A DNA stretch of 64,000 nt. Source: Serratia entomophila. GTDB lineage: Bacteria > Pseudomonadota > Gammaproteobacteria > Enterobacterales > Enterobacteriaceae. Shown piece by piece: positions 16,599 to 45,160 of the stretch. The position numbers and the translations under genes are program-made. How positions within the stretch are numbered: position 1 is the first letter of the stretch; every line of letters begins with the position of its first letter. Location of the stretch: NCBI RefSeq assembly GCF_021462285.1, contig NZ_CP082787.1, forward strand, positions 4,774,001 to 4,838,000, written 5' to 3'. A model generated the notes under the pieces. That model searched no databases and was not told where the DNA came from. It worked only from the letters and a program-made list of their open reading frames with translations.

Positions 16599-17273
16599 AT
16601 GATAGAGCTCTTTGACGTAAACTATAATCTCCTGTCCGATAATAGATCAAGAGAGTTATTCTCTCTTAGAAAGAAAACGTTTAAAGATCGTCTCGATTGG
16701 ATCGTCAGTTGTGAAAACAACATGGAATTTGATGAGTATGACGATCGCCACACCACTTATGTTTTTGGCACCTATAAAGACCAGGTTATTTGCAGCCTGC
16801 GATTTATCGAAACCAGAAACCCTAATATGATCAGCGGCGGCGAATTTAACGCTTATTTCAATAATATCAGCCTGCCCGAAGGCAATTATGTTGAAGCCAG
16901 CAGATTATTTATCGATAAAGAACGCGTTAAAGCCCTGCAGCTTCGTCGGCAGCCAATCAGCGCGATCCTTTTCCTTTCCATGATTAATTACGCCAGAAGT
17001 TCGGGTTATCAGGGCATTTACGCCATTATCAGCCACCCTATGTTGGTTATTTTCCAACGCTCGGGGTGGGAGATATCGGTGGTGGAAACCGGTTGTTCCG
17101 AGAAAAACCAAAATATTTATCTGGTTTATATGCCAATAGACGATGCCAACCAGCAGCGGCTGATCGCGCGCATCGCTCAGCAAACTCGCCTGCCGGACAA
17201 CCCTATGAGCGCATGGCCGTTATCGTTCCCCGTCCGGGAGCAGCGGGCGGATCAGCTGCAGCTCAACGCCTAA
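16599..17273 (+). CDS. LuxI-family acyl-homoserine-lactone synthase
   Basis: 224 residues. It makes N-acyl-homoserine lactones from SAM and acyl-ACP. The family's invariant residues are all in place: R24, F28, W34, E43, D45, D48, R68, E99 and R102 (VEASRLF). The overall type resembles SmaI, SwrI and EsaI of enterobacteria; I do not assign a strain-specific name. It converges with the LuxR gene, and the two 3' ends overlap by 54 bp, an arrangement known for smaI/smaR and esaI/esaR. Base composition is clearly more A/T-rich than its neighbours, which suggests acquisition. The acyl chain made is not predictable here. Confidence 0.95.
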   Translation: MIELFDVNYNLLSDNRSRELFSLRKKTFKDRLDWIVSCENNMEFDEYDDRHTTYVFGTYKDQVICSLRFIETRNPNMISGGEFNAYFNNISLPEGNYVEASRLFIDKERVKALQLRRQPISAILFLSMINYARSSGYQGIYAIISHPMLVIFQRSGWEISVVETGCSEKNQNIYLVYMPIDDANQQRLIARIAQQTRLPDNPMSAWPLSFPVREQRADQLQLNA

Positions 17274-17966
17274 CCTGATGGCGTGCTTGGCATTGGTAAC
17301 GCCCAACTTCTTGACCGCATTGCCAATATGATATTTTACTGTGGTGAGCTTTATCCCCAGGATAAGCGCGATCTCCTGATAGGATTTCCCCATGCTTGCC
17401 CAGTAAATAATCTCATTCTCACGCTTCGAAAAGAACTCCCGCTGATTCATTCGTTCAAAGTCCGCTGAAGTATTCACGCTCTGATAATTTTCCGTGAGCT
17501 TTTCATGCGTAGTAATCAACAGCATCTGAATTTTTTCTTTGTTGTTTTCGAGCTGTTCTTCTATATCCTCGTCACAATGCTCATCCAGCATAATGGAGAG
17601 CACAACCAAATTATGATTATGATCGTGCAGCACGAAAGTATAGCCATTTATCACATTGTAATTTTTAGCCATATCAAAAATTTTTGGCAATTTAAGCCCG
17701 GAACCGATCTTGAGATCTTTATCCCAGGTGAATGGCGTTATTCTGTGCGATGCGGTAATCAATACGGGATCGATAAATTGATAGTTGTTTTTAATATAAA
17801 ACTCAAACCATTCCGTTCTATTTGAAATGATGGAAAAATTGGCCGGATTCCTTTTATTCATTATCGCATAAGCATATTTTATATTATTGTATACGCTCAG
17901 CTGCTCTTCCAAATGATTTTTTATGGAGGTGTTAATGACTTCGTTATTGAAAAATAAATTAGACAC
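17220..17966 (-). CDS. LuxR-family quorum-sensing regulator
   Basis: 248 residues. The N-terminal autoinducer-binding domain has the usual W..Y....Y..IDPV pattern and a later TW plus GYTF. The C-terminal LuxR helix-turn-helix is clear (SKRENEIIYWASMGKSYQEIA...TVKYHI.NAVKKLGV). It probably binds the AHL made by the convergent synthase. The GTG start at 17966 is preceded by AGAGG; the nearby ATG at 17970 is out of frame. By its pairing and orientation it resembles the SmaR/EsaR group, many of which repress without ligand, but the mode here is inference. A/T-rich like luxI. Confidence 0.94.
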   Translation of the reverse strand: MSNLFFNNEVINTSIKNHLEEQLSVYNNIKYAYAIMNKRNPANFSIISNRTEWFEFYIKNNYQFIDPVLITASHRITPFTWDKDLKIGSGLKLPKIFDMAKNYNVINGYTFVLHDHNHNLVVLSIMLDEHCDEDIEEQLENNKEKIQMLLITTHEKLTENYQSVNTSADFERMNQREFFSKRENEIIYWASMGKSYQEIALILGIKLTTVKYHIGNAVKKLGVTNAKHAIRLGVELQLIRPLLPDGER

Positions 17967-18399
17967 GCATCAATCCTCTTAAAAAACCAAGATTCCATCA
18001 TAAATAGCGAGCGAATTATAACATAGAGTTATTCCCTAGCATAATCATATTAAAAAAACCCTGTATATTTACATGGTTAATATAATAATTCATAACGAAG
18101 AAAACCGCAGATGCAAATAAACCAAGTTTATTAGCGCTGATGAAATAAAATCTTATCTTCGATTGCGGGATATTAAGGCGGAACGAACGGGCGGCAGGGA
18201 CAAAGTAACCTTGAGTTAACGCTTATTAAACATAACTTTAATAATTGCGCAGCGTTTTATAAACACTATGGCGAAATGGCATTTTGACGAGGCGGGGTCG
18301 ATCGGTACGCGGAGCCGCTGACAACGGGCTTTACACCCGAGACTGTGCCGCCACGGGAGAAACAAATTGACAGTGAATATTTGGTTATACAATAATAAG
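17967..18399. other. A/T-rich non-coding stretch between luxR and the sRNA
   Basis: No protein gene is supported here. The first part must contain the luxR promoter (minus strand). The right end holds TTGACA (18367-18372) and TACAAT (18388-18393), 15 bp apart; AATAAT at 18391-18396 gives an 18-bp alternative. These could drive the sRNA that follows. I see nothing else definable. Confidence 0.5.
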
Positions 18400-18461
18400 T
18401 AAAATTTTCCCTGGTGTTGGCCAAATGGCTACCTGATCCTTTATAGGATCAGTTTTTTTTT
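18400..18461 (+). ncRNA. candidate ArcZ-like small RNA
   Basis: A compact transcription unit. TTGACA and TACAAT hexamers lie just upstream, and a textbook terminator closes it: CTGATCC (18433-18439), loop TTTATA, GGATCAG (18446-18452), then nine T. The body begins with TTTCCCTGGTGTTGGC (18406-18421), which matches the conserved start of the processed, active 3' fragment of the Hfq-dependent sRNA ArcZ as I recall it from E. coli. The terminator stem differs from that of E. coli arcZ, and arcB, arcZ's usual neighbour, is not here, so this looks like a second copy. The predicted RNA of about 62 nt would equal the processed form without cleavage. Start site and expression are inferred. Confidence 0.6.
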
Positions 18462-18598
18462 GTGCTGCAGAAGCTTCTTGTTATACAACAACAATAAGCA
18501 CTTTTATTCGCGAATGATAGTTGTACTAAAGTACAGTTTTGCCTGCACCTTTCCCCCCGAACGCTCCCTCAACGCCCGATAGCCCCCTTGCCACAGGC

Positions 18599-20587
18599 TC
18601 AGAAACGCGCGCTGACGCCGACGTTGTACATAAACTGCTCGCCGCTGCTCAGCCCGCCGGTTTGCGATACCGTCGCGAAAGCCGCCACCCGATCGGTCAA
18701 CGGCATATTAGCCCCCAGGGTAACGTCCACCCAGTTTTTATCCTGGTCGGCGCTGTCGCGGGTAAACGAGGTTTGCGTCGATTTCAGGCCGCCGCCGGCG
18801 CGATAGACGTCGTCGCCGAACTGGTGCTGATAGCTCACTTCCGCATAGGGGTTAAACAGGCCGAAGCGGGTATCCAGGCGCCATCCCAACGCGCCAATCT
18901 GTGAGTGGTAGGTCTGATCGTTGAAGCGCATGGCGGTGCTGTCGTCACCGTTTTCGCTGTACCCCGCAACCCGGCTGTAATCCCAGGCAAATTGCGCCAT
19001 CGGCCCGGTCGTCAGATAAGACGTGATGGGGAAATCATAGCCGGCGGCAATGCGCGCTCCCCACTGCTTGCCGGAGGTCGAGCCGGTCTCGGTGCGGGCC
19101 AAAGGCCCAAGCTGCATGCTGCGGCGAATATCGTCATAGTCCATTGCAGCATAGTGCAGATCGGCATTCACCCACCCCCGCTCGAAGAACGCCAGCGAGG
19201 TAAACGCCGATAGCAGCAGGCCGCGCGCCTTATACTCGTAACGGCCGGACGGTTGCTGATCGTCGTTGGAGCCGGAAATCAGCGCACCGAACAGCCAGCC
19301 GTCGGTCAGCTGATAGTCCACCCCCAGCGTCAGATTATGCGTCGTGGCGTTGCCGTCCCCCGCTGCCAGGTTGGCGGAGTAATCATAATGCTGGCCGGCA
19401 TAACCACCGAACACGCCCAGCGAACCCTGAGGGTTCCCGCCGTAGCGCAGCTGCTGGAAGCGGCTGTCGAGCGTCGCGCGGCTGTCACGCGCCATCGCCG
19501 CCGTCGCCTGATTCAACGCCACCACCTGCGCCGGGCCGTCCAGCACCGCCTGGATATAATCGGCAATCAGCAGATGCGCCTGCGGGCTGGGGTGGAAATG
19601 GTCGGAGAACAGATAGGACTGGTCGCCGTCGAAGCCGGGCATGCCGGAACGGCACACCGCCGAGGAAACGCCAGCCGGGCAGGCCATGCCGGCGGTATTG
19701 GCGAAGCCGAACTGCGCCGGATTGGCGATAGCCTCACCGAACAGTTTATTCACGTCCACCCGCACGATATTGCCGCCGCCCTGCGCCAGCAGGCGGTCTT
19801 CACTCTGGTTATAGAAATCGGTCAGCTGTGCCGCCTGCGCGCTCAGGCTGTCGTAGGCGGCAATCAACTGAGCAGCGATCGCCTGCTGCACCTGCGGAAT
19901 GGCGCTGCCTTGCCGGGCGGCGGCGGCCAGCGCCTCATGGATCGCCTGGGTGCGCGACGCGTTGTCCGGGGTGGTTAACGAATTGAGGCTGGCATAGGCT
20001 GCCTGTATCGCAGCGCCCTGCACCGGCGGCAGCGCCTGTTGAATGATGAGCTCCATCAGCTGCGGCGTTGAGCCGATATTCGGCACCGTCGGCACAATCA
20101 CCGTGCCGGCGCCGGCGTTCAGCAAGGAGTGCACCTGTGCGGCCGCCGCAGCCGCGCTGTTGTAGGCGACGCCGGGCGCAGTGGCCGGGTTCAGCGCCGC
20201 CGCCGCCAGATCGTTGCCGCCAATCCAGTGGATATACAGCCCATCGCCGTCGGCCCGGCCATCGACCCGATTCAGGTAGCTCTGCACCTGATCCTGCGTA
20301 TTGTCCGCCGGATTCAGAGCAGGCACCGCCACTCCGCCGCCTGCGGCATAGTTGTCCCCACCGTTGTCGGACGCCGCCAGCGCGGCGCCAATGCGCTGCG
20401 CCAGCACCTCGTCATACAGCAGGTGCCGATCGCCATCATAGGTAAACCGACCGTTATTGCCGGTGTCGCTCAGGCTGTCGCCAAACACGTAGAGCTGGTC
20501 GTAAGCCTGAACCGGGGTAGCCATAGAACATAATATTGCCACTGCAAGCGCCGCCGGGCGCGGCATGCACGTTATTTTTAGAGGCAT
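18599..20587 (-). CDS. GDSL-type esterase autotransporter
   Basis: 662 residues. A signal peptide (about residues 1-29, ending PVQA) is followed by a GDSL hydrolase passenger: nucleophile block FGDSLSDTGN, glycine/asparagine block WIGGNDL and the catalytic D..H pair in SDHFHP. The C-terminal 270 residues form a beta-barrel autotransporter domain ending in phenylalanine (VGVSARF). The enzyme should be displayed on the cell surface, as with Pseudomonas EstA and Serratia esterases, acting on short-chain esters or lipids. The ATG at 20587 is chosen because GGAG lies 7 bases upstream and it begins the signal peptide. It is divergent from tag. Confidence 0.93.
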   Translation of the reverse strand: MPLKITCMPRPAALAVAILCSMATPVQAYDQLYVFGDSLSDTGNNGRFTYDGDRHLLYDEVLAQRIGAALAASDNGGDNYAAGGGVAVPALNPADNTQDQVQSYLNRVDGRADGDGLYIHWIGGNDLAAAALNPATAPGVAYNSAAAAAAQVHSLLNAGAGTVIVPTVPNIGSTPQLMELIIQQALPPVQGAAIQAAYASLNSLTTPDNASRTQAIHEALAAAARQGSAIPQVQQAIAAQLIAAYDSLSAQAAQLTDFYNQSEDRLLAQGGGNIVRVDVNKLFGEAIANPAQFGFANTAGMACPAGVSSAVCRSGMPGFDGDQSYLFSDHFHPSPQAHLLIADYIQAVLDGPAQVVALNQATAAMARDSRATLDSRFQQLRYGGNPQGSLGVFGGYAGQHYDYSANLAAGDGNATTHNLTLGVDYQLTDGWLFGALISGSNDDQQPSGRYEYKARGLLLSAFTSLAFFERGWVNADLHYAAMDYDDIRRSMQLGPLARTETGSTSGKQWGARIAAGYDFPITSYLTTGPMAQFAWDYSRVAGYSENGDDSTAMRFNDQTYHSQIGALGWRLDTRFGLFNPYAEVSYQHQFGDDVYRAGGGLKSTQTSFTRDSADQDKNWVDVTLGANMPLTDRVAAFATVSQTGGLSSGEQFMYNVGVSARF

Positions 20588-20782
20588 GAATCGACTCCTG
20601 AGAGCCAGCAAAAAGGAAGCGTCGTTTTTATCATTGGCCTTTTTCAGTTCCGGCCATGTAGTAAATATTGCTGGCTTTTTCGCCACGTCAAGTCAGGCGA
20701 TGATAAAACAATCAGAGACTTGCCAAGCACGCCGCTTCGGGCGATGATTACTGTAAATAAACACAGCATAGGGACGATCAAT

Positions 20783-43759: not shown

Positions 43760-45160
43760 CTAGGAAGATAATGTTCTGATTAAATTGGAGAAATCTTCTT
43801 TGATGTCGTGACTTTCCTCACGCAACTGCTCGATCTTCCGGCAGGCGTGCAACACCGTGGTATGGTCGCGGCCACCAAACGCATCGCCGATTTCTGGCAG
43901 GCTGTGGTTGGTGAGTTCCTTTGCCAGCGCCATCGCCATCTGGCGCGGGCGGGCAACCGAACGCGAACGCCGCTTAGACAGCAAATCCGCGACTTTAATT
44001 TTATAGTACTCGGCCACCGTCTTTTGAATATTGTCGATGGTGACCAGCTTTTCCTGCAGCGCCAACAGATCGCGCAGCGCTTCACGCACGAAATCGATGG
44101 TGATGGCGCGGCCGGTAAAGTTGGCGTTGGCTATCACGCGGTTCAACGCCCCTTCGAGCTCACGCACGTTGGAACGCAGGCGTTTGGCGATAAAGAACGC
44201 CACTTCGCCCGGCAGACGGATATCGTTCTCGTCGGCCTTTTTCATCAGGATCGCCACGCGGGTTTCCAGCTCCGGCGGTTCGATCGCCACCGTCAGCCCC
44301 CAGCCGAAGCGGGATTTCAGACGATCCTCCACCCCGTTAATCTCTTTCGGGTAACGGTCCGAGGTCAGGATGATCTGCTGATTGCCTTCCAACAGGGCAT
44401 TAAAGGTATGGAAGAACTCTTCCTGCGAACGCTCCTTGTTGGCAAAGAACTGGATGTCATCGATCAGCAGCGCGTCGACCGAACGGTAATAGCGCTTAAA
44501 TTCTTCAATGGCGTTGTTCTGCAAGGCTTTGACCATGTCTTGCACAAAGCGTTCCGAGTGCATGTAAACCACTTTGGCATTGGCCTTGCGCGCCATGATG
44601 CCGTTGCCGACCGCGTGCAGCAGGTGAGTCTTACCCAGGCCGGTGCCGCCGTACAGGAACAGCGGGTTATAGGCGCCGCCCGGGTTGTCCGCCACCTGGC
44701 GAGCCGCCGCGCGCGCCAGCTGGTTGGATTTACCCTCAACGAAGTTATCGAAGGTGTGCTTTGGGTTTACGTTGGAGCGGTAAGAGAGTTCAGGCTGCGG
44801 CGCCGCGTTGTCCCAGCTCGGGCGCGAAGGCGCCGCGGTGCGCGCCACCGGCGCCGCAGGGGCGCTGCTGCTGCTGACGCTGGCGGTGACGGTCTGGCTG
44901 ATGATTTGGCCGATCGGTTTGCTGCCCACTTCGAAACGCAGCAAAGGAGCATCCGTACCGCAGAAATCGTTCAGCAGACCATTGATATTGTTTAAGTACT
45001 TATCGCGAACCCAATCCAGCACAAAACGGTTAGGCGCATACAGCGCCAGGGTGTTGTCACTCAGTTCCGCCTGCAATGGGCGTATCCACATACTAAATTC
45101 TGTGGCAGGTAACTCATCCTGCAATCGGGCAAGACACTGCTGCCAAAGCGAAAGTGACAC
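43760..45160 (-). CDS. dnaA: chromosomal replication initiator DnaA
   Basis: 466 residues (E. coli 467). Domain I (about 1-85) binds DnaB and DiaA; a variable linker is rich in Ala/Ser/Pro here. The AAA+ domain has Walker [10 protein letters not shown], Walker [10 protein letters not shown] and the sensor regions. Domain IV ends in the DnaA-box reader [16 protein letters not shown]. The GTG at 45160 is chosen because GGAG lies 8 bases upstream and the protein then begins MSLSLWQQC as in E. coli, where GTG is also used; the frame is open to 45172. It heads dnaA-dnaN-recF-gyrB, and its upstream region holds a DnaA box and many GATC sites. Confidence 0.98.

Follow-up and report, generated by a model that had tools for sequence, protein, structure and literature searches.

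What does a small RNA (sRNA) gene that carries the core of ArcZ do beside a quorum-sensing locus, and by what route could it be tied to cell density? This question is raised by a locus in a 64,000-nucleotide stretch of Serratia entomophila DNA (contig NZ_CP082787.1, positions 4,774,001 to 4,838,000; the whole stretch is hereafter termed the window), in which such a gene lies next to homologs of luxI and luxR. We lean, with modest confidence, toward an answer in which the locus encodes two overlapping and opposed RNAs, an ArcZ mimic paired with an anti-ArcZ RNA that is hindered by quorum. In this mechanism, the + strand RNA (∼18401-18461) would duplicate the active portion of ArcZ in finished form, and the - strand promoter would have its lux box where LuxR proteins of the EsaR/YenR type, which bind DNA without signal, activate transcription. 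At low density, apo-LuxR would turn on the - strand anti-ArcZ RNA (start near 18484), which should pair with both the mimic and the chromosomal ArcZ because it carries the complement of the ArcZ seed, and would thereby reduce the activity of ArcZ, with more motility and less rpoS as the expected outcome. Once density is high, signal would release LuxR, the blocker would stop, and ArcZ activity would return. The observations made here concern sequence, conservation, promoter geometry, and neighborhood; from these we infer both transcripts in S. entomophila, LuxR binding, ArcZ pairing, and the phenotypes, while opposed RNAs, dependence on Hfq and density, and LuxR activation without signal have been reported by others for relatives of this system.

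An Additional Gene With the ArcZ Core

The features of the + strand gene are as follows:

18367..18396, + strand: predicted sense promoter, TTGACA (18367-18372) and AATAAT (18391-18396) with an 18-nt spacer; TTGACA is kept in layout A (see below)
18401..18461, + strand: ArcZ-seed sRNA of ∼58-61 nt with a predicted start, from its fold and a match to model R1 (18401-18459, 73.6 bits)
18406..18421, + strand: ArcZ core TTTCCCTGGTGTTGGC, exact match
18418..18431, + strand: small hairpin, from the predicted fold
18433..18461, + strand: intrinsic terminator, a stem-loop followed by nine T

The original prediction had the ArcZ core preceded by a promoter and followed by a terminator whose T run is nine long, and this arrangement is confirmed: the 16-nt core has zero mismatches, and the terminator consists of CTGATCCT-TTAT-AGGATCAG (18433-18452) followed by the T run (18453-18461). 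The exact 16-mer occurs at two places genome-wide, the window element and canonical arcZ. When up to three mismatches were allowed, the window contained three matches (one exact, two with three mismatches), versus a mean of 0.69 in shuffled sequence. Terminator-like sites per se are not rare (one found, against a shuffle mean of 2.8). The predicted fold of the 59-nt sRNA has an energy of -17.7 kcal/mol (z of -2.97), equaled by two of 200 shuffles. Both hexamers of the promoter that had been proposed, TTGACA and TACAAT, are present; however, TACAAT (18388-18393) leaves a spacer of just 15 nt, and AATAAT, with 18 nt, gives a promoter score of 11/12 and is therefore the likelier -10. This predicted promoter is constitutive-looking, resembling the sigma-70 type; it would yield the short form directly, as had been suggested, and it is conserved in layout A.

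The genome has a separate canonical arcZ between arcB and elbB, which scores 82.8 bits against the Rfam ArcZ model (RF00081) and 31.8 bits with model R1, versus 73.6 bits for the window element; R1 was built from relatives, and the window sequence is itself among its members. The search of the window with Rfam ArcZ (gathering score 66 bits) that had been called for returned no match, even at E values up to 10 for positions 18000-18600, and membership in this Rfam family was consequently rejected. The window element sits between luxR and a GDSL-lipase autotransporter gene, not beside arcB. Since canonical arcZ exists elsewhere and Rfam ArcZ misses the window, we conclude that the element is an additional predicted gene with an ArcZ core rather than the diverged arcZ, as the original prediction of an extra ArcZ-type sRNA had held.

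Further elements of this kind were encountered. A third one (L010, G000:C1:48565-48618, - strand) carries the greater part of the ArcZ seed (TTTCCCTGGTGTTGTT) with a terminator behind it, scores 29.7 bits with model R1, and had no Rfam match at an E value of 0.1. In other genomes of the genus (L268-L271 and L272), TTTCCCTGGTGTTG begins additional terminator-bearing elements with differing 3′ parts, namely TTGTGTGTCATTTCCAGCG... in L268-L271 and another in L272, and no PF03472 gene was found near either. The ArcZ seed may be a recurrent sRNA module.

Conservation of the ArcZ-Seed sRNA

A 111-base query had matches in 25 of 30 Serratia genomes, and 97 of 392 genomes sampled across the GTDB family gave a match at an E value of 1e-5. 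A pattern scan of named species gave 32 stretches, including those from Serratia, Mixta, Edwardsiella, Erwinia, Izhakiella, Pantoea, and Rouxiella. The loci sort into three layouts, A (that of the window), B, and C, which have in common an A/T-rich start, the ArcZ core, the small hairpin, the terminator, and the T run. Two layout-A units (L183 and L184, on G580:C1) lie ∼9.8 kb apart in one genome.

In alignment A1, for which sequences were chosen by the exact core (so that invariance of the core columns is by construction), both sides have changed in four of ten hairpin pairs. Sixteen cells form G-U pairs when the + strand is read, whereas cells that would form them on the opposite strand are absent, which favors the + strand as the folded RNA. 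The alignment omits L030 (missed by the pick), L076 (which has a long insert), and one of the identical L017 and L024. L029 and L067 lack the exact core and are outside the counts of layout-A loci with and without the lux box and the named-species luxR counts given below, and L056 and L064 were not placed in layouts. Within layout A, TTGACA is invariant in 15 luxR loci (some with a fragment only) and in three aligned loci without luxR. It could be argued that the element is a chance match or a functionless remnant, given that some relatives are decayed (L050); with the whole unit present in many genera and the two-sided changes in its hairpins, we regard this as very improbable.

Association With luxI and luxR

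Two quorum-sensing genes precede the sRNA:

16599..17273, + strand: luxI homolog, acyl-homoserine-lactone (AHL) synthase (Pfam PF00765, 222.6 bits)
17220..17966, - strand: luxR homolog, convergent with luxI (Pfam PF03472 and PF00196)

That the element is sited beside luxR holds well beyond the window, and its relatives adjoin luxR far more often than canonical arcZ does. A luxR match was present in 50 of the 60 fetched regions scoring at least 44.8 bits (45 of 53 in which the core was found by pattern, and five of seven placed by coordinates), some of the counted matches being partial or distant (L156, L175, L199, and L212), versus none of ten regions with canonical-type ArcZ cores. These 60 were drawn from the 70 of 132 family places that score at least 44.8 bits, leaving out nine places of the window's own genus and one added later. 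The canonical-type cores come from a set of 20 further regions (19 of the 62 lower-scoring places and one delayed high scorer), the remaining ten of which comprise seven with luxR and three without. Within Serratia, 31 of 46 counted hits have a PF03472 gene no more than 3 kb away; seen from the side of the PF03472 genes, 31 of 87 have such an sRNA neighbor. Of 91 rows, the count took in the 45 of at least 38 bits plus one 32.1-bit row known to be beside luxR, and it excluded the remaining 45, which are canonical arcZ and other elements. Among the 32 named-species stretches, 24 had a luxR match (some partial), two had luxI only, and six had neither, within at most 8 kb.

The association is not obligatory. 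Nine layout-A Serratia loci, in which the sRNA is flanked by glyQ and estA, lack luxIR and yet keep the sRNA together with its promoter and terminator; none of these nine has the lux box. The idea that the sRNA is cargo carried in a luxI/luxR island was rejected on this account, and the presence of the sRNA, as far as these loci tell, is not dependent on luxIR. The unit with luxIR also occurs on plasmids. At L065-L067, an sRNA-luxR-luxI unit lies between IS91 transposases (Yersinia hibernica) or on an IncI1 plasmid (S. marcescens), and a Serratia symbiotica plasmid has glyQS with luxI-luxR and a related sRNA stretch. In the window, the GDSL lipase autotransporter gene (18599-20686, - strand) has its 3′ end facing the sRNA locus, and it likewise follows the sRNA in the layout-A Serratia loci examined, except L029.

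The lux Box and a Predicted Antisense RNA

The opposite strand at the 3′ side of the sRNA has these features:

18519..18538, - strand: lux box, which reads AGTTGTACTAAAGTACAGTT on the + strand and contains the palindrome TGTACTAAAGTACA (18522-18535), from a sequence scan and conservation
18491..18496, - strand: antisense -10, TATTGT, 35 nt from the center of the lux box, from a spacing test and alignment
18401..18484, - strand: 5′ part of the predicted antisense RNA, from promoter geometry

The palindrome TGTACTAAAGTACA is kept 3′ of the terminator in all seven layout-A luxR loci compared. In a scan with a lux-box consensus, 28 of 46 loci have a box that matches at least 14 of 20 positions and begins 96-128 nt beyond the start of the core, against a background of eight in 40,480 shuffled positions. 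Reading from the box to the sRNA, 34 of 56 loci have a -10 at 34-35 nt from the box center (shuffles average 4.5 and never exceed 13), and a second peak at 57-58 nt comprises 17 of 56 (mean of 4.0, maximum of 10), although these tests count related loci separately and the loci are not independent events. The second peak fits two-box loci in which the scan chose the far box. As would be expected for an RNA of the YenS/EsaS type, the window box is accompanied by a -10 at a YenS-like spacing, reading away from the box. We predict that the lux box serves this opposite-strand promoter, and the position of TATTGT puts the antisense start near 18484.

The predicted antisense RNA would cross the entire sRNA and head toward luxR. 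It would contain the complement of the ArcZ seed (18421-18406, - strand), which is unpaired in its predicted fold. No opposite-strand terminator was found by a simple scan of 17500-19500, and the RNA may run on toward luxR. The original prediction, in which the element could link cell density to motility and to pigment or surfactant control, overlooked the lux box and the predicted antisense promoter; the predicted antisense RNA is the likelier link.

A simpler explanation would be that of a plain second ArcZ, in which the + strand sRNA simply supplements ArcZ activity, with a lux box that is unrelated to it and serves, for example, luxR only. The nine loci without luxIR, which keep sense promoter, core, and terminator with no lux box, are as this explanation would have them. 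On the other hand, where luxR is present, the box stays 3′ of the sRNA in all three layouts, even though luxR is upstream and divergent in A, downstream in B, and convergent in C; the -10 reads into the sRNA at a recurrent spacing; and the relatives EsaS, YenS, and pPAR238 (see below) suggest the same. We think this explanation unlikely.

YenS and the ArcZ Seed

YenS of Yersinia is reported to be activated by YenR without signal, to inhibit yenI, and to have forms of 165 and 105 nt with a common 5′ end (PMC3493969). In three Yersinia loci, the LuxR encoded next to YenS shares 49-51% identity with the window LuxR, and an EanR-like LuxR shares 44% with it. The Rfam YenS model (RF02374, gathering score 80 bits) had no match in the window, and the window element was rejected as a member of that family. 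The model did match three fetched loci that also hold an ArcZ-core RNA, and it exceeded the cut-off in 17 of 25 genomes of the Yersinia group.

All 17 YenS sequences contain GCCAACACCAGGG, the anti-seed, at approximately position 88 (unchanged in seven, with a single change in nine and two changes in the remaining one), where both the 165-nt and the 105-nt form would include it, and L237 has a second copy. The changes that keep G-U pairing with ArcZ are seven of C to T and one of A to G. In 15 of 17, contiguous YenS-ArcZ pairing extends over 13-16 positions; sets of 60 shuffles average 9.3-9.9 and peak at 12-15, so that single shuffles sometimes reach this length. Column identity in YenS is 0.890 before the anti-seed, 0.915 in it, and 0.658 just after. 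In 16 of 17, an ArcZ-like CCTGGTGTTG follows at 365-495 nt 3′ from where YenS starts. The scan put the lux-box center at -44 for nine rows, at -69 for seven, and at -30 for the last; the rows with -69 have, by eye, another box that is nearer, and by eye the spacing of -10 to box equals that of the ArcZ-seed loci.

Candidate Targets at the Locus

A different possibility is that both RNAs act on luxI and luxR only, as a local quorum switch of which the ArcZ likeness is a by-product; in the window, the antisense RNA might then serve as the leader of luxR, and the sense RNA might cover the ribosome site of luxI. The window luxI leader has AGGGAAAA, to which TTTTCCCT of the sRNA is complementary; the antisense strand leads on to luxR, and the scan found no terminator before it; and the inhibition of yenI by YenS cited above is of this kind. 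Pairing with luxI leaders is nevertheless weak overall: over the 28 of 43 loci that gave a luxI start (15 did not), the sense core had a mean z of -0.68, with five of 28 below -2, and the anti-core a mean z of 0.02. In a conservation check of 25 loci (some overlapping the 43, and five without luxI), the complementarity was not kept in several layout-A relatives. YenS pairing with three yenI leaders is long and scattered. The luxI leaders were rejected as conserved targets, and the sRNA persists in loci without luxIR; a purely local role accordingly receives only a small share of our belief.

Weighing the Proposed Mechanism

The mechanism of an ArcZ mimic and a LuxR-controlled anti-ArcZ RNA would account for published phenotypes. 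Loss of yenS suppresses the hypermotility of yenI mutants, and YenS promotes motility beyond its effect on yenI (PMC4773443). EanR lowers rpoS expression and ArcZ raises RpoS (PMC7883899), while ArcZ represses flhDC (PMC6749038). An anti-ArcZ RNA would explain both the yenS suppression of yenI hypermotility and the lowering of rpoS by EanR. How YenS stimulates motility downstream of yenI is left open in the available text of PMC4773443, and the conserved ArcZ-seed complement would be a direct, testable answer.

Several points weigh against this mechanism. Both RNAs are known here from sequence, and signal-free action of the window LuxR is proposed by analogy. The pairing is broken in two of 17 YenS (L243 and L247), the whole-molecule YenS-ArcZ energy beats all 100 shuffles in just three of 17, and the anti-seed is less conserved than the YenS 3′ hairpin (column identity of 0.929). 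YenS is reported to act on yenI mRNA, a route that needs no ArcZ. The level of pPAR237, the sense RNA of Pantoea ananatis, likewise drops when density is high (PMC6749038), so a simple on/off toggle of the mimic fails there. Pairing with the flhD and rpoS leaders, which had been put forward as a check on the sRNA, was mostly no better than in shuffles: for flhD, 89 of 200 dinucleotide shuffles paired at least as well for the new sRNA and 56 of 200 for ArcZ; for rpoS, depending on the stretch, 9 or 31 of 200 matched the new sRNA and 88 or 151 of 200 matched ArcZ.

A broader claim is that regulators of the EsaR/YenR type across Enterobacterales act to a good extent via ArcZ, with an anti-ArcZ RNA that they turn on in the absence of signal soaking up ArcZ and its dedicated mimic; we put this somewhat short of an even chance. 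If true, the global ArcZ regulon would be an output of cell density, via YenS, EsaS, and the window antisense RNA. AHL signaling would be connected with a global sRNA that is among the best studied in these bacteria, and an sRNA sponge with its own mimic would take its input from quorum sensing.

Elsewhere in the window, AsdA, the antisense RNA of dnaA, was identified at 44573-44653 (+ strand, 81.5 bits).

Comparison With Known Systems

Quorum-regulated sRNAs and sRNA antagonists are known kinds; the combination of an ArcZ mimic with a LuxR-controlled anti-ArcZ RNA is not described in the literature searched. In searches of the open-licence PubMed Central literature, nothing was found that links YenS, EsaS, or quorum-sensing loci to the ArcZ seed or that describes the ArcZ-seed sRNA group; the words "paralog," "duplicat," and "copies" are absent from PMC11331407, a review of ArcZ, as is "ArcZ" from PMC3493969 and PMC4773443, two reviews on YenS. 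The group of ∼58-nt ArcZ-seed sRNAs, often beside luxR, is thus apparently undescribed.

The + strand sRNA shares with ArcZ (RF00081) the exact 16-nt core and a single-stranded seed followed by a small hairpin and terminator. It differs in having no Rfam match and in not being beside arcB; in this layout it has no long 5′ part, and its hairpin and terminator sequences are different.

YenS (RF02374) resembles the predicted antisense RNA in its complement of the ArcZ seed and its lux box at a matching distance; it is also divergent from luxR, with an ArcZ-core RNA nearby in 16 of 17. In contrast to the antisense RNA, it is a separate gene, in tandem with the ArcZ-core RNA. EsaS of Pantoea stewartii is reported to be activated by EsaR without signal (PMC13365800). 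The promoter bound by EsaR is bidirectional: EsaR represses it in one direction, as PesaR, and activates it in the other, as PesaS, from which it follows that EsaS points away from esaR; in layout B, this direction is antisense to the ArcZ-core sRNA. Compared by description, the window luxR is on the other side, downstream of the antisense RNA.

For P. ananatis, the available part of PMC6749038 describes two Hfq-dependent, partially mutually antisense RNAs beside eanIR, abundant at low density, and lists ArcZ apart from pPAR237 with no connection drawn. Seven of ten published primers map to a fetched locus (L180), where they put pPAR237 on the strand of the ArcZ core and pPAR238 on the complementary strand; pPAR238-R, pPAR237-nR, and one eanR primer had no exact match at this locus. 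The pair is thus similar to the window in its locus and its opposed RNAs, the sense strand having an ArcZ core, and differs in its longer sense RNA (191 nt), with luxR downstream of it. The same logic of a trans-acting sRNA and a cis-encoded antisense antagonist is found in CJnc190/CJnc180 of Campylobacter, an unrelated bacterium, in which the target is ptmG and no quorum-sensing control is mentioned in the abstract (PMC8687705).
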